A stretch of DNA of 64,000 nucleotides, taken from NCBI GenBank assembly GCA_016191285.1, contig JACPPA010000002.1, positions 62,001-126,000 on the forward strand. Reading direction: 5' to 3'. The stretch is from Gammaproteobacteria bacterium (GTDB lineage: Bacteria; Pseudomonadota; Gammaproteobacteria; Ga0077536). Of this stretch, positions 16,965 to 47,096 are shown piece after piece (the first letter of the stretch is position 1; every line of letters starts with the position of its first letter). The notes beneath the pieces were generated by a model, which saw nothing but the letters and a program-made list of their open reading frames with translations, made no database searches and was not told where the DNA came from. The position numbers were made by a program, and so were the translations under genes.

Positions 16965-17243
16965 ATGAGTAGGAAAAAGACGCGCAGTATCGGTGCCGAA
17001 ATACTAGAAGGCATTCGTCAGCTCAAACGTGGTGAAACGGGTCGTGTAATAACGATTCCATCAGTTTCAGAAACACGCACCCGCGTCGGCCTAAGCCAGG
17101 CCGAGTTTGCCCGCCTGCTTGGTGTATCGGTACGCACGCTTCAAGAATGGGAGCAAGGACGCCGGGCACCCTCCGGGCCCGCCCGCACACTGCTAGCAAT
17201 TGCGCACAAGAATCCACGCGCCTTACTAGAGACCGCCATTTAA
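16965..17243 (+). CDS. HTH-type antitoxin/regulator (HigA/XRE-like), no partner toxin beside it
   Basis: 92-residue XRE-fold protein. HTH: RVGLSQAEFARLLGVSVRTLQEWEQGRRAPSGPA, preceded by an N-terminal segment like the antitoxins of RelE/HigB systems (ILEGIRQLKRGETGR). Good ribosome site GGGAGA six bases before ATG. No toxin gene flanks it. Its TAA stop (17241-17243) lies within the sequence ATTTAAC, which begins an attC-like half site, the usual arrangement in integron gene cassettes. A homologous antitoxin with its toxin occurs at 30.4-31.1 kb. Confidence 0.82.
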   Translation: MSRKKTRSIGAEILEGIRQLKRGETGRVITIPSVSETRTRVGLSQAEFARLLGVSVRTLQEWEQGRRAPSGPARTLLAIAHKNPRALLETAI

Positions 17244-17265: not shown

Positions 17266-17415
17266 TTGTCAAAACTTGATCGCTATGAGCGGGAAATTTT
17301 AAGCGCCTTCGAAAAAGGAAGACTTAAGTCTGTCGCCACGAAGCGTGAGCTTGAAAAGCTAAAAGCAGCAGCTCGGGCTACCGCGATTAAGGGTCACCGG
17401 GTAAACAACCGTTGA
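17266..17415 (+). pseudogene. Truncated CopG/BrnA-type antitoxin fragment, copy 1
   Basis: 49 codons, TTG start without a ribosome site: SKLDRYEREILSAFEKG then a Lys/Glu/Ala-rich helix and ending GHRVNNR. It resembles the N-terminal part of CopG-type antitoxins (PF12441-like: a LDxxExxIL-SFExG motif and KDxRVNxR), whose ribbon-helix-helix DNA-binding part would follow but is cut off. A second copy (18663-18812) is about 70-75% identical in protein. Both copies run into the start of the same SDR reductase sequence. It is probably non-functional. Confidence 0.55.
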
Positions 17416-17666
17416 GCGTCTATCTTGTCACCGGTGCTTCAGGCGTTGTCGGCAGCGCGATAGTTCCCGTGCTCCTGCAACGGCCGGACGCGAAGGTCTA
17501 TATTTTGCTTCGCGCCAAGAAGGGCCAGTCCTTAGACTCACGGTTTGAGGAGCTTAAAAAATTCTGGTGCGAGCATTATTCGGCGCTGTCCTCCGAAATG
17601 CTTTCAACTCGCGTATCGCCCATGAATGGCGAAATTACCGAGCCGGTGCTTGGCCTTAATACTGCG
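17412..17666 (+). pseudogene. 5' fragment of the SDR/thioester-reductase-like gene (duplicate)
   Basis: First 85 codons of the reductase found intact at 18809, nearly identical at the base level (only scattered differences, by eye about 97%). It includes the NAD(P)-binding TGASGVVGSAI. At 17667 it breaks off and joins a fragment of rfbC, so no functional product is expected. The far higher identity here than in the antitoxin fragment just upstream implies recent duplication or gene conversion of this segment. Confidence 0.9.
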
Positions 17667-17819
17667 ACAAGACAATTTGTCGTATTCAGCGTATGGCGTG
17701 CTCCGCGACCTGCATTTCCAAGAGCCGGGCGCGCAAACGAAACTCGTCAGCGTGGTCCATGGCGAAGTTTTCGACGTTGTGGTGGACGTGCGCCGTGGCT
17801 CGCCAACCTTTGGTCGTTG
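17667..17819 (+). pseudogene. Internal fragment of rfbC (duplicate)
   Basis: 153 bases matching rfbC 10441-10593 with about 90% identity by eye, covering [21 protein letters not shown] up to RRGSPTFGR. It lacks both ends of the gene. It abuts the truncated reductase copy on the left. Sequence beyond 17820 (up to the attC site) is not recognised. The fragment shows that illegitimate recombination has moved pieces of the rfb operon into this zone. Confidence 0.9.
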
Positions 17820-18025: not shown

Positions 18026-18259
18026 ATGACGACGACCCTCGCGGAGGTTGAGGAGAAGGCCCGGGAACTCAGTAAAAGCGACAAGGCGGCGTTGATTCGG
18101 TTGCTGATTGACGAGCTCGACGGTCCGCCGGAAGTCGATATCGAAAGAGCTTGGATCGCTGAGGCGAAAAGGCGACACCAAGAGCTACTCGATGGACGCG
18201 CCAAGGGCATACCTGGCGAGCAAGTTTTTGCAAACGTTCGAGCGCTGCTGGTGAGATGA
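18026..18259 (+). CDS. Addiction-module antitoxin (RelB-like, PF09720 type)
   Basis: 77-residue antitoxin of the 'unstable antitoxin' family: LAEVEEKARELSKSDKAALIRLLIDEL at the beginning and a middle VDIERAWIAEAKRRHQELLDGRAKGIPGEQVFANVRALL, both diagnostic. Strong ribosome site (GGAGAGGAAG) before ATG. Overlaps the toxin start by 4 bases (ATGA). It is expected to bind and inactivate the toxin and repress the pair. Located directly after the attC site, so it could be a captured cassette. Confidence 0.9.
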   Translation: MTTTLAEVEEKARELSKSDKAALIRLLIDELDGPPEVDIERAWIAEAKRRHQELLDGRAKGIPGEQVFANVRALLVR

Positions 18260-18552
18260 GATACGAGTTCCACCCTGAGGCTGAGGTGGACTTGGTCGAA
18301 ACGATCCTCTATTACGAGACGCAAGCACTCGGTCTGGGCGAACGGTTCGCCGACGAAGTTCGGCGCGCAATCGAGCAACTATTAAGGCATCCGAAGACCG
18401 GTGCTCCTGATGCCGAAGGTTTTCGCAAGTGGGTGTTGGACACTTTCCCCTACAACCTCCGCTACACCGAAAGCGAAAACTTGGTGTACATCTTGGTTGT
18501 CGAGAGCCAGCGCCGTCGTCCCGATTATTGGAAGTCCCGAGTTGCTCGCTAG
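18256..18552 (+). CDS. RelE/ParE-superfamily toxin
   Basis: 98-residue small basic toxin. ParE/RelE features: YEFHPEAEVDLVETILYYETQALGLGERFADEVRRAIEQLLRHPKTG, then RKWVLDTFPYNLRYTESENLVYILVVESQRRRPDYWKSR, the last strand with the usual basic residues. Characterised relatives cut ribosome-bound mRNA or poison gyrase; which applies here cannot be told. Translation coupled to the antitoxin. After its stop there is a 110-base stretch without recognised features up to the second antitoxin fragment. Confidence 0.9.
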   Translation: MRYEFHPEAEVDLVETILYYETQALGLGERFADEVRRAIEQLLRHPKTGAPDAEGFRKWVLDTFPYNLRYTESENLVYILVVESQRRRPDYWKSRVAR

Positions 18553-18662: not shown

Positions 18663-18812
18663 ATGTCAAAACTTGATCGCTACGAGCGAAAAATTTTGAG
18701 CGCCTTCGATACAGGCAAATTCAAATTCGTCGCCACGAGGCGTGAGCTCGAACAGTTGAACGCGGCAACCAGTGCCACAGCGGCCAAAGACCGTCGGGTA
18801 AACAACCGTTGA
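18663..18812 (+). CDS. Truncated CopG/BrnA-type antitoxin fragment, copy 2 (49 aa)
   Basis: MSKLDRYERKILSAFDTG ... KDRRVNNR and stop. Unlike copy 1 it has an ATG and a ribosome site (TTAGGAGTGCACCAA before ATG), so it may be translated. It matches only the N-terminal, toxin-facing half of CopG-type antitoxins; the DNA-binding half is replaced by the reductase gene, whose TTG start overlaps the stop (TTGA). In practice it may serve as a leader that couples translation into the reductase. Whether the peptide itself has a role is unknown. Confidence 0.5.
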   Translation: MSKLDRYERKILSAFDTGKFKFVATRRELEQLNAATSATAAKDRRVNNR

Positions 18813-19930
18813 GCGTCTACCTCGTCACCGGTGCTTCAGGCGTTGTCGGCAGCGCGATAGTTCCCGTGCTCCTGCAACGGCCGGACGCGAAGGTTTATAT
18901 TTTGCTTCGCGCCAAGAAGGGCCAGTCCTTAGACTCACGGTTTGAGGAGCTTAAAAAATTCTGGTGCGAGCATTATTCGGCGCTGTCCTCCGAAATGCTT
19001 TCAACTCGCGTATCGCCGATGAATGGTGAAATTACCGAGTCGCTGCTTGGCCTTAATACTGCGGATCAGGGCGTTCTCACTCAAAGCTGTACAAACATCA
19101 TCCATTGCGCTGCAAGCGTGCGCATGAATCTGCCGTTGGACGAAGCGCGTCAGACGGCGCTCTTCCCGGTGCAAAGCGTCATCGCACTCAGCAAATCCTG
19201 TCGGGCGCTGCGCAAAACCGAATTCATCAGCACCGTGGGCGTTGGGGGGCGGCGTGAGGGCGCTTTGCCGGAACTTTGGATCACCGAGCCGCGAGAATTC
19301 CACAACACGTATGAAGCCTCGAAAGCCGAAGCGGAAGATCTGCTTAGAAATGAGATCGCCGGTGGCTTCTCTGCTACCGTTCATCGTCCGAGCATGGTAG
19401 TCGGGGACTCGAACACCGGCGCCGTGATCCATTTTCAGATCTTTTATTTTATCTGCGATTTCCTATCCGGTCGCCGTACGTTTGGCGTGTATCCCGATAT
19501 CGCGCGCGGCACGTTGGATATCGTGCCGAATGATTATGTTGCGCGAGCTGTGGTGGCGGCGTCGATGGATACCGCCACGATTGGAAAAATATTCCACCTC
19601 TGTTCCGGTCCGCAGGATGCTTTGCGTCTGACGGAGCTGCGCGAAATCGTCCGTGCGAAATTTCGCGCGGCGAAGCGCATGGGTTGGTTGCCAACCTTGG
19701 ACCTAAGCGCCGCCAACTTTACGCGGTTGGTGCGCGCGCTAGCTCGCTTGCTTCCGGAGCGCGAGCGGCGAGCGATCGGTACCTTGCCGGTTTATCTCGA
19801 CTATTTGTCTGGCGTGCAGCAATTTTCGAATGAAATCACGAGCAAGCAACTTAATAGTTACGGGATACTAGCCGTGAATAATCGACAAGTGCTCGATCGG
19901 GTGCTGGATTTTTACTTAAGCGCTGAGTAA
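18809..19930 (+). CDS. SDR / thioester-reductase-like (fatty acyl reductase-like) enzyme
   Basis: Extended SDR related to NAD_binding_4 proteins (fatty acyl-CoA reductases and the R domains of carboxylic acid reductases). Cofactor loop VTGASGVVGSAI at residues 6-17, HCAASVRMNLP, STVGVGG and catalytic YEASKAEAE (Tyr-x3-Lys), then VHRPSMVVGDSNTGA. About 373 residues. Start is TTG at 18809 overlapping the antitoxin fragment; the frame has no better start nearby. Predicted to reduce an activated acyl group to an aldehyde or alcohol, or modify a sugar-lipid; the acyl-ligase at 14.8 kb is the natural upstream partner. A C-terminal ~130 residues without SDR motifs may bind substrate. Confidence 0.75.
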   Translation: MSVYLVTGASGVVGSAIVPVLLQRPDAKVYILLRAKKGQSLDSRFEELKKFWCEHYSALSSEMLSTRVSPMNGEITESLLGLNTADQGVLTQSCTNIIHCAASVRMNLPLDEARQTALFPVQSVIALSKSCRALRKTEFISTVGVGGRREGALPELWITEPREFHNTYEASKAEAEDLLRNEIAGGFSATVHRPSMVVGDSNTGAVIHFQIFYFICDFLSGRRTFGVYPDIARGTLDIVPNDYVARAVVAASMDTATIGKIFHLCSGPQDALRLTELREIVRAKFRAAKRMGWLPTLDLSAANFTRLVRALARLLPERERRAIGTLPVYLDYLSGVQQFSNEITSKQLNSYGILAVNNRQVLDRVLDFYLSAE

Positions 19931-20207: not shown

Positions 20208-21077
20208 TTACGCAAACGGATCGTTCGCCAACCCACCTAGCGCGAAAAACTTGCGTAAGTCATCCAGATCTTTCTTATAAGTCGTCGGCAGTGCATCCCG
20301 CATCGCGTGAATCCGTGCGCGAAGCGTCGGCGCAAGCGTGCGGTCCGCAGTCTTAATGACAACCAGAAAGGGCACAAGGAAAGTTGTATGAACGTTGATT
20401 CCGCTGAGAACGGTAGCGACCTCGCGTAATTCCCGCACGGTAAATGCCGCGTTTAAAGAGCAGCGGTAGAGATCAGCAAAGCGGTCGTACGGAATCGGCG
20501 CATTGAGACCAACGAAGAAATCAATTGAGCGCGGTGATTTCAAGCGCGCAAAATCTTCGATATATACCGCGCCGTTTGTGCCGATAAGGCTAGCCATGGC
20601 GGAGGTACAGGCCATTAGGTCTGTCGCGGTTTCGAGATTGTGTAAGGTCATGGTTGAAATCACCGCGTCCACTTTGCGCTCGCGCAGCACCGTGGGGCGC
20701 GTGATATCGTCCACCATCCATTCCACATTCGGGATCCCTACACGTTCTGCCGCAGTCTTTGCCCGCGCCAACATCGTGGGTTCGCGATCAATACCTAGGA
20801 ATTGAATCGCCGGATTTAGTTGCGCAACCTGGAGCAGTTGAACGCCAGTGCCACAACCGAAATCCGCGCAGATATTGCTCCCCGCAATGACGACGGAGAT
20901 CCGCGCGCTATGGTAGAGATAGCCGGCGGCGGTACGTCCATCACTCGCACCGCCGTCTTCCATCGCCGCGATAATCCCGTCGACCCCGAGCAGGGCTGCT
21001 GGTGTCGCGCCACGTGGCTGCTGCGATCTTCCGAGTACTTCGCGGGCGAACATCCGCGCCATGCCAAATGCGGACAT
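20208..21077 (-). CDS. Class I SAM-dependent methyltransferase
   Basis: 289 residues. SAM-binding motif I ADFGCGTGVQLLQVA near residue 90, acidic end of strand 2 GIDREPTMLARAK, motif II-like VEWMVDDIT, VDAVISTMTLHNLE. The N-terminal ~75 residues (MARMFAREVLGR, ATPAALLGVDGIIAAM, GYLYHSARIS) are family-specific. It is the last gene of a minus-strand set with the two FtsX-type permeases (36 bases from the second), so it is probably co-transcribed and may act on the exported molecule. Acceptor unknown. No membrane segment. Confidence 0.8.
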   Translation of the reverse strand: MSAFGMARMFAREVLGRSQQPRGATPAALLGVDGIIAAMEDGGASDGRTAAGYLYHSARISVVIAGSNICADFGCGTGVQLLQVAQLNPAIQFLGIDREPTMLARAKTAAERVGIPNVEWMVDDITRPTVLRERKVDAVISTMTLHNLETATDLMACTSAMASLIGTNGAVYIEDFARLKSPRSIDFFVGLNAPIPYDRFADLYRCSLNAAFTVRELREVATVLSGINVHTTFLVPFLVVIKTADRTLAPTLRARIHAMRDALPTTYKKDLDDLRKFFALGGLANDPFA

Positions 21078-21113: not shown

Positions 21114-22346
21114 TTAAATATTTTGGCGCAAGGCCTCGACCACGGGTACCCGCGCCGCGCCGCGCGCCGCGAGCAACGAAGAAAGCACGGTGGCAATGAA
21201 GCCGATCAAGAAGGCGACAATCAAAACGCTCGGCACTATCCGAATATACGCCGTGTATCCCGCGTTGGAATTCGGCGGCGGCGGCATGGGGATCCCGATC
21301 GCAGAAATGCCCCAGGCCAAGGCGACGCCAACGGCGACGCCAAGGGTCGCGCCGAATAAGCCCAGCAGACAGTTCTCGAGAATGATCATGCGCGAGATAT
21401 CGGAATCGCGTTTGCCGAGCGCCTTTAACGTGCCGAATTCCCCGACTCTTTCGTAGGCCGTCATATTGACGCTGTTGGCGACGCTGAGCAGCACTACCAG
21501 CAAGATGATCAACTGCAAAACGCCGAGCTCGCTTTTGTACAAGTCGACCGTCTTCGCATAGAAATCATCGAGTTCGAACCAGGTTTTAACTTCGAACGCT
21601 TGTCCGGCCAGCGCCGCTTTAATGCGCGAAGCGACCGCATCGGTCGCCAAGGTGTTTGCAAGTGACACAACTACGGCGTGCGCGCCTTTAGCGGCCAACA
21701 GCTCCTGCGCGTCGGGCAGCGCCAAGCGGACAGCTCGCGCGTCGAAGTCCTTGGAGAAGGTACGGAAGACGCCGACCACTTCAAACTCCAGGCTATTCAA
21801 GCCGCCTTCCGGCGTGTTGGCGAGAACCGTAACAAAGCTCCCGATGGGAAGATTTAAAGACTTGGCGACACCTTCACCTAACAGGATTTTGTTCTGATCT
21901 TTAGCCGTGATTTGCCGACCCTCGATGATGAAGAAGAAGCTCCCAAACTGGGCCGCTTCCTTCGCCGGTTCCACGCCCTCACCGATGATCGGCAGATCAG
22001 TCTTCCCGTTATTCAGCAATCCAAAGAAGGTGACTCGTTGCATCGAGTCCACCACCCCAGGTATCTTCGCGACCGCTGCTTGTACGATATTAGGCGCGTC
22101 GATCAAATATTTGCCCGGCTCCTTGGTCCAATTCGCAAGATAGCCGTCTTTGTAGATTTGAATATGCCCGAGCCGGGAATGGATGGTGGCCTCGCGCAAT
22201 TGGATGAAAACATCCTCGACGAAACCGCCGCTTAAGATTAAGCCGACCACGCCAAACACGATCGAAGCCAGGGTCATCGCGGTTCGCGCTTTTTGACGGA
22301 ACAGGTTTCGTAGCGCGAACTGAAAATCCATCATCTCAAGATGCAT
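21114..22346 (-). CDS. FtsX/MacB-type ABC transporter permease (second of two paralogues)
   Basis: 410 residues with the MacB/LolC/FtsX layout. One N-terminal membrane helix (TAMTLASIVFGVVGLILSGGF), a large periplasmic domain (about residues 45-270), then three C-terminal helices (LQLIILLVVLLSVANSVNMTAYERVGEFGTLKALGK; CLLGLFGATLGVAVGVALAWGIS; VLIVAFLIGFIATVLSSLLAARG). The ERVGEFGTLKALG coupling helix contacts the ATPase. Its beginning (DFQFALRNLFRQKARTAMTL) parallels that of the upstream paralogue. Start ATG 22346 with AAGGA about ten bases upstream; two further ATGs follow within six codons. It lies 17 bases after the first permease. No ATPase lies in this operon; the candidate is at 31.6 kb. 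Confidence 0.88.
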   Translation of the reverse strand: MHLEMMDFQFALRNLFRQKARTAMTLASIVFGVVGLILSGGFVEDVFIQLREATIHSRLGHIQIYKDGYLANWTKEPGKYLIDAPNIVQAAVAKIPGVVDSMQRVTFFGLLNNGKTDLPIIGEGVEPAKEAAQFGSFFFIIEGRQITAKDQNKILLGEGVAKSLNLPIGSFVTVLANTPEGGLNSLEFEVVGVFRTFSKDFDARAVRLALPDAQELLAAKGAHAVVVSLANTLATDAVASRIKAALAGQAFEVKTWFELDDFYAKTVDLYKSELGVLQLIILLVVLLSVANSVNMTAYERVGEFGTLKALGKRDSDISRMIILENCLLGLFGATLGVAVGVALAWGISAIGIPMPPPPNSNAGYTAYIRIVPSVLIVAFLIGFIATVLSSLLAARGAARVPVVEALRQNI

Positions 22347-22363: not shown

Positions 22364-24040
22364 CTAACGTGCGCGGCGGAGCGCGTCGACGATTTCAAGT
22401 CGCGAGGCCTTCCAGGCCGGATACAAGCTCGCCAACACCGCGGAGATCACGGCGACCACAAACCCGCTCGCCGCGATTTGCCAAGTCACACGGATGGAGG
22501 CGACGAAGCCTGCATCCATCCCGGGCGCCGGTGGCATTGGGATCCCGACAACGGAAATTACTTTCGCCAGACCCACGCCGAGTAGGGTTCCAACCACGCC
22601 ACCCGCGAGGCCGAGGATGAGACCCTCACTCACGAAGAGGCGCATGATTGTGCGGCCGCGAAAGCCCACCGCCATCAAAGTGCCGATCTCGGATGTACGC
22701 TCCATCACGCTCATCACCAGCGTATTCGAGATACTCATGATGATGATGATGGCGATGATGGTGTTGACGAAGGTCGTCTGCGCTGAAAACAGGTCGACTA
22801 CCGCTTTGTAGAATTCCGCGAGATCGAGCCAGCGGACGAGTTGCAGCCCGGATTTTTGTTCGGGCACCATCTTGCGCAGCATGCCGAGCATTTCATCCGT
22901 GTTTTCGGTCTCATCGAGCAGAACCACGAGCTGGTGTGAGCCCTCGGTCCGCAGCAGTCGCCGCGCGAGGCCAATGGGCACCCGCAGCGCGACATCGTCG
23001 AACGCTTTGACCGCCGTGTGAAAGATCCCGCGTACTTGGGCGTCGACCGCGGACACCTTGCCATCTTTATCATTGGTGAGAAGCACCACGCTATCTCCGG
23101 GCTGTGCGCCCAGGATCGACGCCAACCCTTTGCCGAGAATAATGCCGGTAGGCGCCGAATCCGCGAGCGCCTCCCCGGCATGCACGATGACTTCCTTCGA
23201 GACCTGCGATTCGGTTGCCGGCGCGACCCCTTCGCCAAGAAAACTCACCGTAGTTTCACCTTTTGAAATCAGGCCGGAGAAATTGAGCCGCGGGGTCACG
23301 GTCTTGATATGCGGAAGAGCTGCCAGCCGTTTCGTATCGAGTGCGGTATCGCCGATGAGATAGGAATAAGGATCGGCGAGCCCTTTTTCATAAAAGCCCT
23401 TTTTGACGATTTGGAGATGACCGAGATGCGAATGAATGGTGGATTCGCGTTCCGCCCAGACCATCCATTCGGCAAACCCGCCGGCGAGGATTAGGGCGAT
23501 GACGCCAAACCCAATCGCGCCCATCGCGAGCGCGGTGCGCCGGCGGTGGCGCGCTAAATTGCGGAGCGCGAGGCTGAGCGTCTGTCCGAGCAGAGTCCGA
23601 ACTAGGTTGCCAAGGCCAGCCCCACGTTGAGGAGATTCTGATTCAGCGGCGGGTTGCGCCGCATCCACGGGTACAGACGCCGCAGTTTGAGTTTGGCGAA
23701 CAACCGGAAGCGGGGTCGTAGAAGGAGTGGGCTCGGTGGCAATCGATGCCGGCGCCAACGGCGGACGTGTCGCCGCCAGTGCATCCCGATACCAATCCTG
23801 GCGCGCGAGAAAGCTCGCGTCGATAACTGCCGAGTCGCCAAACTCGCGAACCGGGAGTTGTCCGCCTAAGGTTTCCGCTTGGTTCGGTTCAATGTCGTGT
23901 TCGTCTTTAAACGCTGCCAAGGCGTTAAACACGTTCGAGCAATGGGTACACCGCACCATGCCCATCGCGACCCGCAGGTTCTCCGGGTCGGCGCGGAAGA
24001 GGCTGTTACAGGCGGGGCACTGGGTGTACACGCGGGTCAT
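22364..24040 (-). CDS. Zinc-ribbon domain fused to an FtsX/MacB-type ABC permease
   Basis: 558 residues. Residues 1-45 form an MJ0042-type zinc ribbon (C8-x2-C11 ... C31-x2-C34; CPACNSLF and CTHCSNVFNAL), as found at the beginning of DUF3426 proteins. A Pro/Ala-rich linker (about 45-150) follows, then a complete permease: LALRNLARHRRRTALAMGAIGFG with helix 1 near 175, a periplasmic domain, and three C-terminal helices around TSEIGTLMAVGFRG. Such a cytoplasmic zinc ribbon on an exporter permease is unusual. The start is supported because the ribbon begins at once after the ATG. First gene of the minus-strand set. Confidence 0.88.
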   Translation of the reverse strand: MTRVYTQCPACNSLFRADPENLRVAMGMVRCTHCSNVFNALAAFKDEHDIEPNQAETLGGQLPVREFGDSAVIDASFLARQDWYRDALAATRPPLAPASIATEPTPSTTPLPVVRQTQTAASVPVDAAQPAAESESPQRGAGLGNLVRTLLGQTLSLALRNLARHRRRTALAMGAIGFGVIALILAGGFAEWMVWAERESTIHSHLGHLQIVKKGFYEKGLADPYSYLIGDTALDTKRLAALPHIKTVTPRLNFSGLISKGETTVSFLGEGVAPATESQVSKEVIVHAGEALADSAPTGIILGKGLASILGAQPGDSVVLLTNDKDGKVSAVDAQVRGIFHTAVKAFDDVALRVPIGLARRLLRTEGSHQLVVLLDETENTDEMLGMLRKMVPEQKSGLQLVRWLDLAEFYKAVVDLFSAQTTFVNTIIAIIIIMSISNTLVMSVMERTSEIGTLMAVGFRGRTIMRLFVSEGLILGLAGGVVGTLLGVGLAKVISVVGIPMPPAPGMDAGFVASIRVTWQIAASGFVVAVISAVLASLYPAWKASRLEIVDALRRAR

Positions 24041-24120: not shown

Positions 24121-24148
24121 GAAAAGAAAAGGGCGGCCGAGGCCGCCC
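24121..24148 (-). terminator. Rho-independent terminator of the PEP-CTERM protein gene
   Basis: Perfect GC-rich hairpin GGGCGGCC/GGCCGCCC (24131-24148) with, on the minus strand, a following TTTTCTTTTC run (24121-24130). It lies about 35 bases past the stop of the PEP-CTERM gene and separates it from the permease set transcribed in the same direction. Confidence 0.88.
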
Positions 24149-24183
24149 TTGCAGGATAGGTAAACTTATTTGGTATTCCGCGT

Positions 24184-25254
24184 TTAGGCCGGCGTACGGC
24201 GGCGGCTGGCGCCGACCCCAAGCAAACCAAGGCCTAGCAGGGCGAGGGTGCCTGGCTCCGGTATCGCTGCAATTGCTGCTTTAGCTTCCGTGTTGTGGCT
24301 GATTGTGAACGTGTACTTACCTGCAGCGAGCACGAGTTCCGCTTCGAATGCTTTTTTGGCATTGATGATGGAAACGTCACCGTTCGTGAGTAACCCGACG
24401 TTATTAGACATTGAGAAGCCATCTGCGAACTTTTTGCAAGTGCCCGCAGCAACGCAGGTTCCTTCGACGCCAACGAGGAATCCATTATTGGTAATGCCAG
24501 GGGAGTTCGCGGGCACAAACCCGTTAGGCGTCCATTTCAAGATGTCAGTGCTACTACCGACTGCGCGCACCGTCGCAGTCCAACTGTATGAGGCGTTTGC
24601 GTTGGTCCCAGCCTGGCCCAGCGCAGCACGCAGAAAGCCTTCGGCATCAAAGCTGAGCTCGAAATTTTGGGTGGCTAACGCAGTGAAGGTGAAGTCCGTA
24701 ATCAGGTTTTGGTGCGAAAGTGCCGATCCAACAGAATTGAACGAACTCAAATTAACTTGATTGTGTACCGGTACACAATCGCCCATGTTGCCGGGGCCGC
24801 ATATCGAACCGGGTTGAACCGACGGATCGAGCGCATTACCGAACGAGCTTGTTGACGAGCCGGCATAAGAACCCGGGTTGATGGTTCCCGACGGAAGTGT
24901 CGTGTTCGCGATGAAGCCCGGGCCGCCCGCCGTCTTCAACAACGAGAACGGCACGCCGAGACCGACTGCAGTACTGGTCGAATTGGTCACACCATTGAGT
25001 GAGGCCAGTACGTCAGCGTTCGTCACGACGCTATCGAGAATTATTTTACCTGTTGGGTTTGTAATGGGATCAAAAATGTCTAATGGCACACCGCTTTTGC
25101 CTAAGAAGCCATTTCCACTCAGGATCGTGAAATTACTGAGCGCTAGGTAAGCGTCTGCTACTGCGCCGGGCGACGGGATAGCGAGCACGCTGGCCCCGTA
25201 CCCTAAGGTCAGCGCAGCGCCCATTGCCGCAGCTAACTTATTCATTCGAATCAT
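24184..25254 (-). CDS. Secreted PEP-CTERM sorting-domain protein
   Basis: 356 residues from the ATG at 25254 (MIRMNKLAAAMG), which has a good AGGAGAACATC ribosome site; an upstream ATG at 25299 is less likely. Signal peptide with hydrophobic core GAALTLGYGASVLA. Body is a Ser/Thr/Asn/Gly-rich beta-type secreted protein with two Cys pairs (SICGPGNMGDC; TCVAAGTC). C-terminus: a PEP-CTERM tripartite signal in the last 26 residues (IPEPGT, hydrophobic LALLGLGLLGVGA, then SRRR), the recognition sequence for exosortase A. Expected to be cleaved by XrtA (45.5 kb) and released to or held at the surface. Its sigma54 promoter is annotated separately. No known family for the body. It is the only PEP-CTERM substrate in the window. 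Confidence 0.93.
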   Translation of the reverse strand: MIRMNKLAAAMGAALTLGYGASVLAIPSPGAVADAYLALSNFTILSGNGFLGKSGVPLDIFDPITNPTGKIILDSVVTNADVLASLNGVTNSTSTAVGLGVPFSLLKTAGGPGFIANTTLPSGTINPGSYAGSSTSSFGNALDPSVQPGSICGPGNMGDCVPVHNQVNLSSFNSVGSALSHQNLITDFTFTALATQNFELSFDAEGFLRAALGQAGTNANASYSWTATVRAVGSSTDILKWTPNGFVPANSPGITNNGFLVGVEGTCVAAGTCKKFADGFSMSNNVGLLTNGDVSIINAKKAFEAELVLAAGKYTFTISHNTEAKAAIAAIPEPGTLALLGLGLLGVGASRRRTPA

Positions 25255-25323
25255 GATGTTCTCCTTCTGACCAAGTAACTTGTGGATACCCGCCCCCACT
25301 AGGCGGGGACTTGCGGAACATTA

Positions 25324-25891: not shown

Positions 25892-28660
25892 ATGTCGTTA
25901 AAGCTGGCGTCTCGCAGTGCGATTATCGCAACAACTTTTCTATTTTTGGCCGGGTGCGCAAAAACAGCCGATCAATTATTCCAAGACGCTACGGCGCGTG
26001 AGGCGAAGGGCGATCGGGCCGGGGCACTTATCGATCTGAAAAGTGCGCTGCAGCAGGACCCGAATAATGGCGCTATGCGCTTCATGGCCGGACGGCTCTA
26101 CAACGCGACTTTTGATCCGGTAAATGCCGAAAACGAACTCAGAAAGGCCGGTAAGCTCGGCGTGGTAGAAAATGGGAGACTCGTCGTCGAACTCGCGCGG
26201 TCCTTACGCGCCCAGCAAAAATTCGCCCAGCTTCTAAAAGAGATCACGCCCGATAAGGCCTTCGCAGCCCCCCAATTGGCGACTCTTTACGCCTTACGCG
26301 GGCGTGCGCAACATGTACTTGGCTATGTAGAAGACGCGGAACTCAGTCTGAAAACGGGTAACTCTATCGGCGCCGATAACCCCGATGTCGATTTACTCGA
26401 CGCGCAGATCAAGGCTGGGAAGGGTGATTTCGAGGGCGCTCTAGCGGCGGCAGAGCGTGCGCTAAGCACCCACCAAAACGATTTCGACGCGTGGACCTAT
26501 AAGGCGGAATTATTGCGAGAGCTTAAACGCGACGATGATGCAATTAATGCGTATGGAGAAGTACTAAAGCTAAATATCATTAATTTCCGCGCGTTGAAGG
26601 CGCGTTCAATGCTGTACTTGGCTATGGGGAAACTCACACAAGCGCAAAAGGATGCCGATCTACTAGCTCGGGTTTACCCGCAAAACCCGGAAGCCTTAAC
26701 CCAACGTGGAATTTTGCAATTGGCTCAGGGCAACCCGAAATTGGCTTTGGAGTCGGCGCGCGCAGCATTGAAGAACGTTCCGGATTTCGCGGATGCGAAG
26801 CTCTTATCGGGGCTGGTTTATCGCGCGCTCGGCTCCTTAGCGCAATCCGAAGATTTCCTGTCCAAATACCTCGCGGGACAGCCGGATTCCAGTTTCGCGC
26901 GCCGTGCGCTGGCCGATACCCTGCTCGGCCTAGACCAACCTGCTCGAGCGGTCGAAATCCTCGAGCCGCTATTGAAAAATCGGGCGAATGACCCGCGTCT
27001 TTGGGCCTTAGCCGGCGACGCTTACCTGCGCAGTGGCGACTCCGCAAAAGCCATGGAATGGTTCGACAAAGCCGCGACTGCCGATCCCAAGGATGCGGAC
27101 ATCCAAATCAAGCACGCATTAGCAACGATAGACACAGGCAAGGGCGATCTTGGTTTAGACGAACTTGCCGATGCGCTAGAGCTGACGAAGGACGCGTCCC
27201 GCGCGGATGAAATGCTAATCCTATCGCTACTCGCGCGCAAGGAAGTGGAGAAGACCGACGCGGCGCTACAAAAGCTCGAAAAGCGGGCGCCTAAAGATCC
27301 AATTACTTCCAATCTTAAAGGCCTGGTCTTGTTGGCTAAGAATGATCGTGAAGCGGCAAACAAAGCATTTGAAGAAGCGTTGAAACAAAAGCCAGGATTT
27401 TTCCCGGCCGCCGCAAACGCGGCGCAACTAGACCTCGCCGCAGGTAAACCCAAAGACGCGCGCGCGCGTTATGCGGGGGTGCTGACAGCGGACGATAAAT
27501 CGGTGCAGGCGATGCTGGCGATCGCGGATCTCGATCTGCAGCTAGGGCAGCGCAAAGAAGCGATAGAAATGCTGGAACGGGCGGCTAAAGCCGCGCCGAA
27601 CTCAATGCAACCAAGGCTGTTGTTGATCGCCCTGTACAACGCCGTCGGCGACAAGAAACGAGTCACGGCCACCGCCGAGGAAGCCCTGGCCGCGAACCCT
27701 GAAAATCCGCAAGCAATCATGTTAGCGGCTGAAGCTGAGTTAAGTGAGGGCAACACTAATAAAGCGATTGCAACGTATGGCAACTTGGTACGGTTAGATC
27801 CGGACTCCACGGACGCGCAAGTTCAACTCGCGCGGTTCCAGGCGCGCGTCGGCGCGCCAGAGGACGCAGAGTCGACCTTGCGCCGCCTCTTAGATCGGCA
27901 CCCGACCCCAGCGGCGCAGATCGCCTTGATTTCCTTGTTGGTTGCAGAGAAGAGGATTGACGATGCAATGGCTTACGCTAAACAGATGCAAAAAGCGCAG
28001 ATGAAGGCGCCGCTAGGGTATGCCCTTGAAGGGGAGGTGTTCGAAGCAACTAAGAAATTTACCGAGGCCGCTACCGCCTATGACACCGCGCTGCGCCTAC
28101 AACCGATGGGACAATTCGCCGTAAAACGCTTTCTGGCGCGCGCCCGCGGCGGTGATCAAAAAGCGGCGCTCGTTGAATTGGAGCACTGGGCGGACGCATA
28201 TCCAGAGGATTTCATTGCGCGCGCCAAAGTAGGTGACGCGTTCATGGCGGCTGGCGACTACAAAACCGCTGCGGCCAACTACGAAATCACTGTGAAAGGT
28301 AAACAGGTGCCGCTGGACGTTGCGAATAATCTGGCCTGGGCCTACTACCAACTCAAAGACAAGCGCGCACTTGAAATGGCTGAAACCGCGCTCAAGGCGA
28401 ATCCTAATTCCGGGCTGACCGCAGACACCTTCGGCTGGATTCTAGTTGAACAAGGGGACGTGGCGCGCGGTCTCGGCAATCTGAAACGAGCGGTAGCGCT
28501 CGCACCGGAGGAAGCTGATATTCGTTACCACTTAGCCGCGGCGCTAGCGAAGTCCGGGGACTCCGCTGGCGCGCGTTCTGAACTTGAGAGACTCTTAAAA
28601 TCCGATAAGCCCTTCGCAACCCGCAAAGACGCCGAAGCCCTATTGGCGTCGCTTAAATGA
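25892..28660 (+). CDS. prsT: PEP-CTERM system TPR-repeat lipoprotein PrsT
   Basis: 922 residues. Lipoprotein signal peptide with lipobox LAGC (Cys22), then tetratricopeptide repeats along the whole chain (for example GDRAGALIDLKSALQQDPNNGAM, and repeated A-x-x-x-P motifs). Length and sequence match the PrsT family (TIGR02917 type), which accompanies prsK, prsR and exosortase A. Predicted to sit on a membrane facing the periplasm and to scaffold EPS or PEP-CTERM assembly; its exact role is unknown. Good ribosome site (GAGGAGTAAGGA before ATG). Converges with the LolA-like gene with only two bases between the stops. Confidence 0.95.
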   Translation: MSLKLASRSAIIATTFLFLAGCAKTADQLFQDATAREAKGDRAGALIDLKSALQQDPNNGAMRFMAGRLYNATFDPVNAENELRKAGKLGVVENGRLVVELARSLRAQQKFAQLLKEITPDKAFAAPQLATLYALRGRAQHVLGYVEDAELSLKTGNSIGADNPDVDLLDAQIKAGKGDFEGALAAAERALSTHQNDFDAWTYKAELLRELKRDDDAINAYGEVLKLNIINFRALKARSMLYLAMGKLTQAQKDADLLARVYPQNPEALTQRGILQLAQGNPKLALESARAALKNVPDFADAKLLSGLVYRALGSLAQSEDFLSKYLAGQPDSSFARRALADTLLGLDQPARAVEILEPLLKNRANDPRLWALAGDAYLRSGDSAKAMEWFDKAATADPKDADIQIKHALATIDTGKGDLGLDELADALELTKDASRADEMLILSLLARKEVEKTDAALQKLEKRAPKDPITSNLKGLVLLAKNDREAANKAFEEALKQKPGFFPAAANAAQLDLAAGKPKDARARYAGVLTADDKSVQAMLAIADLDLQLGQRKEAIEMLERAAKAAPNSMQPRLLLIALYNAVGDKKRVTATAEEALAANPENPQAIMLAAEAELSEGNTNKAIATYGNLVRLDPDSTDAQVQLARFQARVGAPEDAESTLRRLLDRHPTPAAQIALISLLVAEKRIDDAMAYAKQMQKAQMKAPLGYALEGEVFEATKKFTEAATAYDTALRLQPMGQFAVKRFLARARGGDQKAALVELEHWADAYPEDFIARAKVGDAFMAAGDYKTAAANYEITVKGKQVPLDVANNLAWAYYQLKDKRALEMAETALKANPNSGLTADTFGWILVEQGDVARGLGNLKRAVALAPEEADIRYHLAAALAKSGDSAGARSELERLLKSDKPFATRKDAEALLASLK

Positions 28661-28662
28661 TT

Positions 28663-29412
28663 TTAGTTTTTGAGCTTGCGCAGGAAGTCCTTGGTGAACA
28701 CTTTATCCGGAATGTCGCGTACCTTGAGCGAACTGTAGACGAGGACTGACTGCTCGCCGCTTTTCAACGCATCAATCAGTGTCAGCTTGGTGGGGCGGAC
28801 CTTGCCGCCCAACTCCTTGAACTCGCTATACAGGCCGGTTTTCATCAAGCGTTTAGAGAGCGTGTAAAACTCGGCTTTTACCGGCCGGTTGGTACCTTTT
28901 TCAACCCAATACAACACGCGATGATAGGTCACTCCTTTGCGCGCGGCGGTGAGTTCCAGCACGCGGCACTTTCTGCCTTCCATATTTTCTTCCTTGACGA
29001 AGGTGGCGGCGTAGTCGCCGGCGAAATTCGCGCGCGCCAAATCGCCGTTTGCCACCTGGCCAGTGAGGCGTTGCGATAGCGGCAAGCGCACCGGTTGCGA
29101 AACTTCGGGTAAAAACACCCATAAGTCCGGTCCGCGCAGCAGCATCACCTGGCCAGCTTCGGAAGCCGGCGCGAGCGTGCGAACCACGCTTTTGTCGTGG
29201 CCGCTTTGTAATACCTGGTATTCGTGCAGTTCAGGGTCGCGGTTCGGAACCAGGCTGGTTACGTTTACGCTGACTTGAAAACCTTCGTCGGGGAAACGGA
29301 TTTGGTCGGCGGCGGTAACGGTGTCTTCGGCACTCGGCGCCTCGGCTGCCATGACCGTGGTGTTTGCCAAGAGGGAGATTAAGAACAGCGCGGCGGATCT
29401 TCGAATGGGCAT
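28663..29412 (-). CDS. Periplasmic LolA-like (outer-membrane lipoprotein-sorting-type) protein
   Basis: About 249 residues. Signal peptide RRSAALFLISLLANTTVMA, then a LolA/LppX-like half-barrel fold region: VTAADQIRFPDEGFQVSVNV, LLRGPDLWVFLPEVSQPVRLPLSQRLTGQVANGDLARANF (typical of the family annotated 'outer membrane lipoprotein-sorting protein'), RKGVTYHRVLYWVEKGTNRPVKAEFYTLSKRLMKTGLYSEF. Such proteins carry a lipid or lipidated cargo across the periplasm. An alternative start at 29460 has a better-spaced AGGA but gives an implausibly long N-region. Together with the FtsX-type permeases, the ATPase at 31.6 kb and the barrel at 32.3 kb it makes a plausible export chain. Confidence 0.85.
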   Translation of the reverse strand: MPIRRSAALFLISLLANTTVMAAEAPSAEDTVTAADQIRFPDEGFQVSVNVTSLVPNRDPELHEYQVLQSGHDKSVVRTLAPASEAGQVMLLRGPDLWVFLPEVSQPVRLPLSQRLTGQVANGDLARANFAGDYAATFVKEENMEGRKCRVLELTAARKGVTYHRVLYWVEKGTNRPVKAEFYTLSKRLMKTGLYSEFKELGGKVRPTKLTLIDALKSGEQSVLVYSSLKVRDIPDKVFTKDFLRKLKN

Positions 29413-29534
29413 GGGGTGGAGGCTCCAAAGGCGTGCAATGAATGGTCTTTGATAACGCATGTTAGTCCTGCGTGCGTTGGGTATTCTTTTTTTGCTCGTT
29501 TTAGATTTACTTGGGTGCTTTATAGTGCCGTCCC

Positions 29535-30447: not shown

Positions 30448-30741
30448 CTACGTGTGCAAGGCCTCAATCGCGGCCTTCGGATTTGACGCCACTATCTTTA
30501 GCAGCGCGCGTGCCGGCCCCGCGGGCCGCGTCCGGTGTTGCTCCCAGTTTTGCAGCGTCCGCAGGTTCACGCCGATCAGCTTTGCGAACTGTGATTGACT
30601 GATTTTTGCCGCCTCGCGGACAGCGCGAATGTCCGGTTCGATAAGCTCGGTGGTACGAGCGCCATGGACGACGTTGCCCGCACGGTGGCGCTTCATCTCG
30701 CGTACCCCTTTGATCAATTGTTCAAAATGTCGCTTATCCAT
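30448..30741 (-). CDS. higA: HigA-type HTH antitoxin
   Basis: 97 residues. HTH segment VREAAKISQSQFAKLIGVNLRTLQNWEQHRTRPAGPARALLKIV after an N-terminal part LIKGVREMKRHRAG, typical of second-gene antitoxins in HigBA-order modules. It overlaps the toxin gene by 8 bases; AAGGA lies about 8 bases before its ATG inside the toxin gene. Expected to bind the palindrome upstream of the toxin and to neutralise the toxin. Related to the solitary HTH protein at 16965. Confidence 0.88.
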   Translation of the reverse strand: MDKRHFEQLIKGVREMKRHRAGNVVHGARTTELIEPDIRAVREAAKISQSQFAKLIGVNLRTLQNWEQHRTRPAGPARALLKIVASNPKAAIEALHT

Positions 30742-31292: not shown

Positions 31293-31615
31293 TATTTATG
31301 CTCTTCTATTTAGGGCCGAGGAGTCGATAGTTTCCGATTAGCGCTTAAAGGTCAGATTTGCCATCGTAGTATCTTCACGCCATTACTTCGGAGTTAGTGT
31401 AGGCGGGTTATTTTAGGCGGATCGAGACTTAGCAGCGGAGGGGAATCGTCGTCAGTAACTCGCACGGAATCAGCGTTATCTTGTCGATTTTTTTGTGCTA
31501 GCATCCCGCGAGTTCGTGCGATCAGTGGGTTACCAGTGCTTCTTAAAACGAGGATAAGCCGTCGTGCTCCAGATTGCGAAGCTCTGGTCTTCTGCACCGC
31601 GCGCAGAGTTCCCCG

Positions 31616-32290
31616 ATGAGTGTCGTTCGGGTTGAACATGTGTGGAAGGACTATATGCTTGGAACCCAAACCGTTCATGCCTTGCAAGATGTCTCCATGG
31701 TGGTTGCCCCCGGGCGTTTCCTGGCGATTGCGGGTCCTTCCGGCAGTGGTAAAACGACCTTGTTGAATCTAATAGGTTGCATCGATACCCCGACCAAAGG
31801 CGATATCTTCATCGGTGAAGAAATGGTTAGCCGCAAGACCCCCGACGAACTTGCAGATCTGCGCGCCCGCACCTTGGGTTTTGTGTTCCAAACGTTCAAC
31901 CTTCTGCCCGTGTTATCGGCCGCCGAAAATGTGGAATACCCCATGCTTCAGCGCAAGGACATCAGCAAGAAGGAACGGGTCGCGCGGGTTAAGCACTATC
32001 TCGACACGGTGGGTCTCGGCGCCAAGATGCATAACCGACCCAACGAGCTCAGCGGCGGGCAACGACAACGTGTGGCGATTGCCCGTGCGCTTGCCGGTGG
32101 CCCCAGCATTATTTTGGCCGATGAACCCACAGCAAATTTGGATTCGAAAACGGGCGAGAGCATTCTTACTTTGATGAAACACATCAATGAAACGGAACGG
32201 ACGACGTTCGTGTTTTCGACCCACGACTTTCGCATTATGGAAATGGCCGATCGAGTAGTGAGCGTGGCCGACGGCAGGGTGGTGATTTGA
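31616..32290 (+). CDS. ABC-transporter ATPase (LolD/MacB type)
   Basis: 224 residues. Walker A GPSGSGKTT, Q-loop VFQTFNLLP, signature LSGGQRQRVAIARAL, Walker B IILADEPTANLD, H-loop STHD. The LolD/MacB/FtsE subclass is the one that pairs with FtsX-type permeases, and the only such permeases in the window are those at 21.1-24.0 kb, so they are probably partners although encoded apart. Start ATG 31616 (MSVVRVEHVWKDY) fits the family; sequence upstream is not. Its stop overlaps the ATG of the outer-membrane protein (TGATG), tying the ATPase to that barrel. Confidence 0.92.
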   Translation: MSVVRVEHVWKDYMLGTQTVHALQDVSMVVAPGRFLAIAGPSGSGKTTLLNLIGCIDTPTKGDIFIGEEMVSRKTPDELADLRARTLGFVFQTFNLLPVLSAAENVEYPMLQRKDISKKERVARVKHYLDTVGLGAKMHNRPNELSGGQRQRVAIARALAGGPSIILADEPTANLDSKTGESILTLMKHINETERTTFVFSTHDFRIMEMADRVVSVADGRVVI

Positions 32291-33888
32291 TGCGCGCGGC
32301 GATGTTATGGACCTTGGTGTGCGGAATGCTCGGGGCGCTAAGCATGGCCATGGCGAATGCGTCGGACGTCGACACGGTATTTGCGCCAACGACGCCGCTA
32401 CTCATCGCGCAAGAAAGCATGGATGATTTGTTCGAAGGCTCGGCAGCGGCGAAACCTGCCCCTACCACGCCCTCGAAACCAGCCGCAGCACCGGTCAACC
32501 CAGCGACAAAGCCCGCGGAATCCGCGCCTACCGCGCAGAAATCCGCGACCGACGCGGGTTCGATGGACGACCTATTCGATAAAGCAACTCCAGAGCCGGC
32601 GACGCCTGCGAAGCCAGCAACGACGCCGGAGGCTATAGTCGCACCGAGCGTCGCGAAAGCGGAACCAAAATCGTCGATCAAAGTGAGCGGATTTGTGCAG
32701 AACGAATTGGCTTATACGTATGCTGGCCGTGAACACTTCTCTAAGTTCAAGACGCTGTCGAAAGTCCGGATTAACGGCCGCTTCAACGATGATGTGTCGT
32801 GGCAGGTTGGTGGCCATCTCCAATACGACCCGATCTACGAACTCAACGATTTCTATCCGCGCCGCGTCGAGCACGATCAGAAACTTGACGGTTATCTCGA
32901 CGAGACCTTTGTCGATATCGACGCTGGGGCGTGGGATATTCGCTTAGGTCGCCAGCACATTGTGTGGGGCGAAATGGTCGGCCTGTTTTTCGCCGATGTC
33001 GTCTCGGCGCTCGACCTACGTGAATTTGTGTTGCCCGATTTTGATTTGATTCGAATTCCGCAATGGGCAGCTCGCGCCGAGTATTACCACGACGATTTTC
33101 ATCTGGAATTCATCTACATCCCGTACATGACGATTGACGATCTCGGCAAATTTGGGAGCGAGTTCTTCCCCTTTCAAATTCAATTGCCGCCGGGTGTTCA
33201 AGCGGTCTTTCGCAATGATCGCACGCCTGATGATCTGGGTTCCGACATGGGCGCGGGAACGCGTGCGTCGTACCTTAAAGACGGTTGGGATGTTTCACTC
33301 TTTTACTACACGAGCCCGGATAAAACCGCGGCGTTTCAACGCCAGATCGACCTTGGACCGATACCCACGCTCACCTTCAAACCGATCCACGACCGGATCC
33401 ATCAAATTGGCAGCACGGTGGCGAAAGATTTCGGGTCGTTTGTGTTTAAAGCGGAGGCCATCGAAACCGCGAACCGTTTGATCAGCGTGACCGATCTTGC
33501 CGATCCGGACGGTCTCGCGCGAAGCAACGAGTTGCGCTACGTGCTCGGCGTGGACTGGGCCGGCGAGACCGGACACAACGCGAATTTTCAATTCTTCCAA
33601 ACCTGGTTGCAGGAGCATAAGCCGACGATGATCTCGAAAGAGGTCGAGACCGGGGCCAGCATCTTTCTCACGACCACGAGTTGGCATCACGATATTAAGC
33701 CCGAGGTATTGTGGATCCGGAGTTTGGATCGCAACGAATGGCTGTTGGAAACGAAGGTGACTTGGAACTTCGCGACGAATTGGCGCGGGGTTCTTGGCGC
33801 GGATATCTTCGACGGGCCGCCAACCGGTGTGCTTGGGCAGTTTGATTCAACCGACCGCGTGTACTGGGAATTTCGGTATAGCTTCTAG
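32290..33888 (+). CDS. Outer-membrane beta-barrel protein, DUF1302-like, with SMDDLF repeats
   Basis: 532 residues. Signal peptide (LGALSMAMANA region), then a low-complexity Ala/Pro/Thr linker (about 35-120) carrying the hexapeptide SMDDLF twice, then a barrel beginning IKVSGFVQNELAYTYAGREHFSKFKTLSKVRINGRFNDDVSWQVGG and WDIRLGRQHIVWGE, ending in the outer-membrane signature YWEFRYSF (terminal Phe). Typical of DUF1302-type outer-membrane proteins that sit in operons with exporters. Translation is coupled to the ATPase gene. Function unknown; likely the outer-membrane end of the Lol-like export chain (inference). The repeated acidic motif may be a docking peptide. Confidence 0.82.
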   Translation: MRAAMLWTLVCGMLGALSMAMANASDVDTVFAPTTPLLIAQESMDDLFEGSAAAKPAPTTPSKPAAAPVNPATKPAESAPTAQKSATDAGSMDDLFDKATPEPATPAKPATTPEAIVAPSVAKAEPKSSIKVSGFVQNELAYTYAGREHFSKFKTLSKVRINGRFNDDVSWQVGGHLQYDPIYELNDFYPRRVEHDQKLDGYLDETFVDIDAGAWDIRLGRQHIVWGEMVGLFFADVVSALDLREFVLPDFDLIRIPQWAARAEYYHDDFHLEFIYIPYMTIDDLGKFGSEFFPFQIQLPPGVQAVFRNDRTPDDLGSDMGAGTRASYLKDGWDVSLFYYTSPDKTAAFQRQIDLGPIPTLTFKPIHDRIHQIGSTVAKDFGSFVFKAEAIETANRLISVTDLADPDGLARSNELRYVLGVDWAGETGHNANFQFFQTWLQEHKPTMISKEVETGASIFLTTTSWHHDIKPEVLWIRSLDRNEWLLETKVTWNFATNWRGVLGADIFDGPPTGVLGQFDSTDRVYWEFRYSF

Positions 33889-45530: not shown

Positions 45531-47096
45531 ATGAATAAACCCGAACTCGCTGAACCAACCGCCGTGCCATCGCGCTTGAGTGCGGAAGGCCTCACGGCGT
45601 TCGTGGTGTGCGGCATGATCGGCGTGCTACTGCTGGCGTATCGTGAACCTGTGCTGGCCATGGTGCACCTGTGGCGGACCTCGGATACCTATGCGCATGG
45701 CGCGTTGATTCCGTTCGTGACGATCTACCTGCTCTATCAAAATCGCAATCAATTTTTCGCGCGCGATGCACGAATCTTTTGGCCCGCACTGCTCGCGGTG
45801 CTGGGCTCTGGCGCACTGTGGGCAGGCGCTGCGTTGGCCGATATCGAAGTCATTCAACAACTGGCGGTGGTGGCGATCCTGCTCGGTCTGGTGCTTTTGT
45901 TCTACGGCACGGCGAGGGTAACAACGGTCATCTTCCCGTTGTGCTTCCTATTCCTGGCGGTGCCGATGGGCGATGGGTTGATTCCACCCTTGGTCGAGAT
46001 GACCGCCGACTTCGTGGTGGCGGCGTTGCGCTGGAGTGGCATTCCGGTCTATCGCGATGGCACGTCGTTTGTGATCCCGAGCGGATCATGGTCGGTGGTC
46101 AGCGGGTGCAGCGGCATGCGGTATTTGATGGCGACCATCACGGTTGGGATGCTGTTTGCCTATTTAAATTACCGTTCGATCGGGCGCCGGATACTCTTTG
46201 TGGCCGTTGCCATGGTGGTCGCGATTGTCGGCAACTGGCTCCGCGCTTACGCCATTGTCATGATCGCCCACCTGAGCGACATGAAGCTCGCGCTCGGCGT
46301 CGATCATCTAATTTACGGCTGGGTATTTTTTGGGATTTTAATTTTTATACTGATGTCGGTCGGCATGATGTGGAGTGAACCGCCCGCCGCCGACGCCGGA
46401 ATAAACCGTGCTCGCCACCCGATCCGGCCAACGCCTGCTGCGTTGTTTGGCGCAGTGTTGCTGGGCGCGATCTCATTGCTGGTGTGGCCGTTGTTTGTTC
46501 AGCACTTGTCTAATGTCGCCGAGGTATCGCCACCGTCGATTGCTATCGCGGCCCAAGACCTCGGTCCGGAATGGCGCGCCAGCACGCCGGTAGTCGACGA
46601 ATGGAAACCCTATTACGCCGGCGATCCGGTTCGTGCCAGCGGCAATTATTCAAGTGGCGAACATCACCTGGGTTGGGACGTCGCGTGGTACGGCGCGCAG
46701 CGTCAAGGCGTGGAGGTCATTAATGCGGCCAATCATCTAGTCGCCGAGAAAGCCGAGCCGTGGCGGCTTAAGGACGCGCCGGAATCGACCATGGGGCCCG
46801 CGAGTAATCCAAACGTTACTGAGTCCATCCTGCGTGAACGCGCGGGGGATGGCCAGCTGATCGTATGGCAGTGGTATTGGGTGGGTGGGCACACCACCAC
46901 TAACCGGTTACTTTCCAAACTCTACGAGTTGAATTCACTTTTTCATGGCCATGGCAATCCCGGCGCCAGTGTGTTGGTCTTCACGCTCGTAGGCGCGCGT
47001 GAAGACTTGGATCAAGCGCGTCATCGGCTGCGAACACAAAGCGATAGGCTCGCGCAAGCTCTCAACGCGGCGCTCGATCGCACGCTAAGCAAATGA
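45531..47096 (+). CDS. xrtA: Exosortase A with fused C-terminal EpsI domain
   Basis: 521 residues. N-terminal ~290 residues: about eight membrane helices of the exosortase/archaeosortase fold with the three catalytic residues in order, Cys193 (VVSGCSGMRY), Arg238 (NWLRAYA) and His259 (VDHLIYGW). C-terminal ~220 residues: EpsI-like periplasmic domain (LGPEWRASTPVVDEWKPYYAGDPV.., GWDVAWYGAQRQGVEV, WQWYWVGGHTTTNRLLSKLYEL). Cuts and transfers PEP-CTERM proteins, such as the one at 24.2 kb. TIGR03109 type. All catalytic residues present; apparently active. Confidence 0.96.
   Translation: MNKPELAEPTAVPSRLSAEGLTAFVVCGMIGVLLLAYREPVLAMVHLWRTSDTYAHGALIPFVTIYLLYQNRNQFFARDARIFWPALLAVLGSGALWAGAALADIEVIQQLAVVAILLGLVLLFYGTARVTTVIFPLCFLFLAVPMGDGLIPPLVEMTADFVVAALRWSGIPVYRDGTSFVIPSGSWSVVSGCSGMRYLMATITVGMLFAYLNYRSIGRRILFVAVAMVVAIVGNWLRAYAIVMIAHLSDMKLALGVDHLIYGWVFFGILIFILMSVGMMWSEPPAADAGINRARHPIRPTPAALFGAVLLGAISLLVWPLFVQHLSNVAEVSPPSIAIAAQDLGPEWRASTPVVDEWKPYYAGDPVRASGNYSSGEHHLGWDVAWYGAQRQGVEVINAANHLVAEKAEPWRLKDAPESTMGPASNPNVTESILRERAGDGQLIVWQWYWVGGHTTTNRLLSKLYELNSLFHGHGNPGASVLVFTLVGAREDLDQARHRLRTQSDRLAQALNAALDRTLSK

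Follow-up and report, generated by a model that had tools for sequence, protein, structure and literature searches.

The protein PERM1 of a gammaproteobacterium carries a putatively zinc-binding ribbon fused, through a linker, to a type VII ABC permease. The fusion is real and rare, with known parts brought together in a new domain arrangement. The DNA analysed here, referred to as the window, is 64,000 nucleotides long, and its relevant features are listed in Table 1. The original prediction of a fusion between a ribbon and an FtsX-type permease was borne out in position, strand and frame by an uninterrupted 558-residue ORF and by profile matches above the cut-offs. Residues 5-40 matched Zn_ribbon_5 (E 1.3e-9; 38.1 bits against a curated cut-off of 29.3), Zn_ribbon_4 (E 1.9e-8, also above its curated cut-off) and TIGR02098 MJ0042_CXXC (E 4.4e-10; 39.1 bits against 20.9). 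In Pfam, MacB_PCD was located at residues 169-384 and FtsX at 424-549. The corresponding domain test for type VII permeases gave 50.2 bits against 27 for MacB_PCD and 69.1 against 25.5 for FtsX. PERM1 missed the LolC/LolE equivalog TIGR02212 (111 bits against a cut-off of 362). The adjoining paralogue, PERM2, starts 17 bases downstream and, as had been claimed, lacks the ribbon; its Pfam domains are FtsX/MacB_PCD only. Both permeases belong to the LolC/E-MacB type, with LolF, LolE and MacB as solved relatives, but score far under the LolC/E equivalog threshold.

Table 1. Features of the window and, in the last row, RND-PERM1 fusions of other genomes (coordinates of their own loci).
Feature	Coordinates	Strand	Basis or remark
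PERM1, zinc ribbon, linker and type VII ABC (FtsX/MacB_PCD) permease, 558 aa	22364..24040	-	Single ORF, Pfam, NCBIfam, 12 fused homologues
MJ0042/Zn_ribbon_5 ribbon of PERM1, residues 4-40, Cys 8, 11, 31, 34	23921..24031	-	Profile matches, constraint, AF2
Linker of PERM1, residues 41-145	23606..23920	-	Alignment, pN/pS, pLDDT, composition
Permease core of PERM1, residues 146-558, four TM helices and large periplasmic MacB_PCD domain	22367..23605	-	Profiles, AF2; solved relatives LolF, LolE
PERM2, paralogous permease without ribbon	21114..22346	-	ORF, Pfam; pair conserved across homologous loci
Class I SAM methyltransferase, 36 bases downstream of PERM2	20208..21077	-	Pfam; in only some ribbon-bearing genomes
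EDSAP-1 family PEP-CTERM protein, upstream of PERM1	24184..25299	-	Pfam, NCBIfam
PrsT, XrtA/PEP-CTERM TPR protein	25892..28660	+	TIGR02917, 659.9 bits
LolA-like periplasmic carrier (PF17131)	28663..29460	-	Pfam; conserved beside permease pair
ABC ATPase, LolD/DevA/MacB type, probable motor of permease pair	31574..32290	+	Profiles, neighbourhood
DUF1302 outer-membrane beta-barrel, probable outer-membrane end of system	32287..33888	+	Profiles, neighbourhood
Exosortase A, XrtA	45531..47096	+	TIGR03109, 307 bits
RND-PERM1 fusions, one open frame each	L087:6713-11695 (1661 aa), L063:6335-11203 (1623 aa), L059:6491-11347 (1619 aa)		

The same architecture was found in 12 other assemblies, which brings the intact fused proteins to 13, from seven genera and three GTDB families (f1, f71 and f134). 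Eight of the other genomes, located by a search of relatives, belong to the window's own family; two bins of a second family (UBA664 and UBA7966) came from scanning about 85,000 species genomes. The third family is represented by G280, taken from a class-wide sample, and by G168, found in an order search around G280. Within the window's own order, 9 of 36 genomes carry the fusion, and a tenth (G005) has a ribbon remnant only. There, an orphan 77-residue frame (L135:6589-6819) is very like the fused ribbons and the permease is gone; it is a deletion remnant of the fusion. The ribbon was always on PERM1 and never on PERM2 in the homologous loci examined, and the flanks examined around ribbonless permeases contained no separate ribbon gene. 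We must also note that two of the MAG contigs (L039, CAMATU010000342; L041, CAMAXW010000033) are titled Klebsiella pneumoniae. Since they match G003 and G016, which belong to the window's genus or family, these titles look wrong.

The possibility of a stop or frameshift at 23600-24000, for which read mapping had been proposed, was addressed by comparing assemblies instead. In each of the 12 others a single open frame spans the junction, and this recurrence, together with purifying selection on the ribbon, indicates that neither defect is present. An assembly or sequencing error joining two genes would have been conceivable, since the assemblies are all drafts, but the identical junction occurs in 13 separate assemblies, including the seven-contig G280, and the codon substitution pattern is gene-like. 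We consider the chance of such an error negligible and rejected an assembly chimera on the recurrence of the junction. The fusion is apparently undescribed. No description was found in the titles and abstracts of the papers searched with “zinc ribbon”, “FtsX” and “permease”, and in the literature searched the term “zinc_ribbon_5” appeared only in papers on ZitP.

The ribbon is under purifying selection. In an alignment of 11 fused proteins (that of the window, eight further proteins of family f1 and two UBA proteins), the four cysteines were invariant along with Thr6, Leu22, Arg23, Met26, Gly27, Met28, Phe38, Asn39, Ala40 and Leu41. The proteins of L190 and L193 keep the four cysteines and vary at several of the other positions. 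In two members (L049:10001-10150 and L051:5811-5960), the first zinc knuckle is C-x4-C (CSNTEC and CSNHEC) instead of C-x2-C. Between the window and L039, pN/pS was 0.23 for the ribbon, 0.25 for the core and 0.48 for the linker, and between the window and L040 it was 0.35 for the ribbon and 0.31 for the core; with only 42 codons in the ribbon, such single-pair ratios are rough. In the pair L039/L040 the ribbon was more conserved than the core, and between L052 and L053 it shows no amino-acid change though a third of the synonymous sites differ. The contrast in pN/pS and the L052/L053 pair thus show a ribbon that is selected for, with a constraint comparable to the core's in most pairs, and a much looser linker.

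The linker was correctly described as Pro/Ala-rich ahead of the permease, with 10 prolines and 12 alanines among the 58 residues of the stretch 88-145, which is predicted to be disordered. In the AF2 model of PERM1 (66 sequences, mean pLDDT 82), the ribbon forms an ordered block with pLDDT 78-87. It is followed by a tether (residues 62-145) mostly below 50 (62-74 and 92-145) with a weak helix at 75-91, and then by the permease. The model contains four long membrane helices, in agreement with hydropathy. Around the weak helix lies a partly conserved motif, G-x-QLP followed by GD and VID, which most fused proteins keep in part and which is absent from L041 and L042. The 15 residues before TM1 include five Lys/Arg and no acidic residue, and by the positive-inside rule the N-terminus of PERM1 and its ribbon are therefore expected to be cytosolic.

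PERM1 lies in an XrtA/PEP-CTERM exopolysaccharide locus. The XrtA, PrsK, PrsR and PrsT equivalogs of the cluster all scored above their cut-offs, and the window also encodes an exosortase-associated acyltransferase. A terminator-like hairpin (24129-24150) separates PERM1 from the EDSAP-1 gene. No sigma-54 promoter was found at PERM1 (the window has three matches where two are expected), and a sigma-70 scan performed no better than on shuffled sequence. The LolA-like protein, the ATPase and the DUF1302 barrel occurred all together in 35 of 68 homologous loci, many of which have incomplete flanks, and a LolD/DevA-type ATPase was present in 40 of the 68 despite these incomplete flanks. Such loci often adjoin PrsT, PrsK, PrsR or Wza. 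With the two permeases, these genes form a conserved five-gene module that looks like a lipid or lipoprotein shuttle. The module resembles LolCDE/LolF in its FtsX and periplasmic core domains, four TM helices, paired permeases, separate LolD-like ATPase and LolA-like carrier in the locus. It differs in the ribbon added to PERM1 and in its tie to XrtA/PEP-CTERM with a DUF1302 barrel. An ABC transporter is mentioned neither in the 2006 paper defining the PEP-CTERM system nor in a 2023 study of floc formation. The original label “exporter” is reasonable, with the qualification that type VII ABC machines do not, as a rule, transport cargo out of the cytosol but act on the periplasmic side, and that a partner protein generally sets their function (PMC12646458).

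Several side observations were made on the window. The DUF1302 barrel has a weak match to the capsule assembly protein Wzi (PF14052, 23.8 bits, under the cut-off). The segment 17302-17819 is a chimeric duplicate: its first part, 17302-17666, matches 18699-19063 at the start of the thioester reductase gene with 90% identity, and the rest, 17667-17819, matches 10441-10593 in an rfbC-like gene with 91% identity. Small ORFs at 16965-17243, 18256-18552 and 30448-31054 appear by eye to be toxin-antitoxin-like (XRE-type, RelE/ParE-like).

Zn_ribbon_5 occurs in two proteins of the window's genome, PERM1 and a DUF3426 protein whose gene adjoins prmA (G000:C22, L110). The latter is the sole match to the DUF3426 domain (PF11906) in a profile search of the genome, and PERM1 lacks this domain. 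The original description of the ribbon as DUF3426-like agrees with this comparison: the two proteins share the start M-x-T-Q-C, the register and 44% identity over the aligned ribbon region, and their N-termini align without gaps except for three extra residues at the start of PERM1. In the DUF3426 protein, the DUF3426 domain follows one TM helix, there is no FtsX domain, and the signature residues of the fused ribbons are missing. Among the DUF3426 ribbons of the family, the cysteines, Gly27 and Phe38 are shared with the fused ribbons, or nearly so, but Arg23, Met26 and Met28 are not, which argues that the fused ribbons have a constrained surface of their own. The ribbon of L193 is nearer the DUF3426 type. 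Judged from these sequences, the PERM1 ribbon likely derived from the start of a DUF3426 gene, and the direction of the transfer is itself inferred.

In the permease trees, the ribbon label requires four changes, two of which are forced by well-supported branches. Since a ribbonless Accumulibacter/Propionivibrio clade (L044-L048) falls in a group with the window's own fused relatives, the ribbon was either lost in this clade or gained separately. Constraining all fused proteins together with the nested ribbonless clade costs 1.4 log units and is not rejected (p-AU 0.458), so that one gain of the ribbon with later loss is possible. With the ribbon absent from this clade, some hosts have a machine that functions in its absence. 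The missing ribbon further lends something to the view that the ribbon is a passenger, acquired by chance fusion with a DUF3426-like 5′ sequence and tolerated without a function, as does the persistence of the orphan remnant in G005. We regard this as very unlikely, because pN/pS of the ribbon is low while the linker drifts, and because the architecture persists across three families.

With moderate confidence, we read PERM1 as one half of a heteromeric LolCDE-like machine of the XrtA locus, whose ribbon would be a zinc-stabilised docking module for a cytosolic or membrane-associated partner. From the anatomy and the conserved neighbourhood, PERM1, PERM2 and the ATPase of the locus probably extract a substrate, lipid or membrane-anchored, from the inner membrane; the LolA-like carrier would then receive it and deliver it to the DUF1302 barrel. 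In some Gammaproteobacteria, PERM1 has at its presumably cytosolic N-terminus a ribbon that resembles the first residues of a DUF3426 protein; it would hang on a flexible tether of about 100 residues beside the ATPase end of the machine. The ribbon most likely places the exporter near a partner, or couples the two, as the ribbon of ZitP does with PopZ. Docking appears the likeliest role because of this precedent and because the conserved non-ligand residues mark a surface.

ZitP from Caulobacter consists of Zn_ribbon_5, a TM helix and DUF3426 (PMC5182065, PMC5182063), and protein binding by its ribbon has been tested: residues 1-43 suffice to bind PopZ, for which the four cysteines, Trp35 and a basic patch are required (PMC5182065). 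PERM1 and ZitP are both membrane proteins with a ribbon of the spacing C-x2-C-x19-C-x2-C at the cytosolic N-terminus (predicted for PERM1), separated by a stretch from the TM helix. In contrast to ZitP, the ribbon of PERM1 sits on an ABC permease and no DUF3426 domain follows. The best PDB sequence match of the PERM1 ribbon was 2nb9 (E 0.019), whose residues fit the published numbering of ZitP. Of the PopZ contacts, Arg27 is kept (Arg30 in PERM1), whereas Trp35, Arg24, Arg34 and Lys18 correspond to Phe38, Gly27, Val37 and Asn21. A polarity ribbon of the ZitP/PopZ type was rejected, as most of the contact residues are not conserved in PERM1.

Two other roles were weighed against docking. The ribbon might autoregulate the complex by packing on the ATPase or on the cytosolic face of the permeases, tuning activity or assembly with no outside partner. 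It does adjoin the cytosolic coupling region and is confined to PERM1, but a mostly disordered tether of about 100 residues exceeds what such packing needs, and ribbonless homologues have the same ATPase and module; we find this role doubtful. Alternatively, the ribbon could be a metal or redox sensor gating the transporter, with zinc loss or cysteine oxidation altering ATPase activity or assembly; an ABC-system domain expected in the cytosol, with all four cysteines invariant, might suggest this. We judge a sensor unlikely. The constraint reaches non-ligand residues (Arg23, Met26, Met28 and Asn39-Leu41), which better suits a binding surface, the ZitP ribbon needs its zinc centre for protein binding (PMC5182065), and the tether, predicted to be disordered, offers no obvious allosteric path. 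None of the findings here speaks specifically for sensing.

Docking to a partner had been part of the original prediction and is its best-supported proposal for the ribbon, given the ZitP precedent, but the partners named there were not supported. Five ribbon-bearing genomes (G001, G019, G105, G234 and G280, of which G105 and G234 are incomplete bins) have no orthologue of the methyltransferase anywhere in the genome, and the ribbonless G342 has one. The acyl enzymes fared no better, as the acyl ligase and the thioester reductase occur in loci both with and without the ribbon. Co-occurrence with the ribbon thus supports neither candidate.

A second fusion was observed at the same end of the permease. 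In Plasticicumulans acidivorans, P. lactativorans and one MAG (3 of 40 genomes of the Plasticicumulans order), PERM1 is the C-terminal part of a 1619-1661-residue frame whose first part is a complete AcrB-type RND pump, an RND-ABC hybrid polypeptide. The two parts are joined by a segment of about 200 residues, conserved among all three, which is TPR-like by eye and gave no match in Pfam. The joint is topologically sensible, because the C-terminus of the RND pump and the N-terminus of PERM1 are both expected to be cytosolic. As the ribbon and the pump are attached at the same place, the N-terminus of PERM1 appears to be a recurrent fusion point. We tentatively suggest that it may be a plug-in port that tethers the XrtA-linked LolCDE-like machine to partners, by a zinc ribbon in some lineages and by covalent fusion to an entire AcrB-type RND pump in another. 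PERM1 recalls YbbAP-TesA and MacAB, type VII permeases whose function is set by the attached partner (PMC12646458). Unlike in those systems, the partner module of PERM1 would be cytosolic and fused, not periplasmic.

Little is known of how PEP-CTERM proteins or components of the exopolysaccharide get to the outer membrane, a step that the five-gene LolCDE-like module could serve. The ribbon is a small, separable handle for finding the cytosolic partner of this machine. With it, ABC transporters join the carriers of MJ0042 ribbons, which have so far been tested (in the literature searched) in polarity proteins like ZitP. If the plug-in port is true, PERM1 would belong to a type VII ABC system that is positioned or coupled from the cytosolic side.
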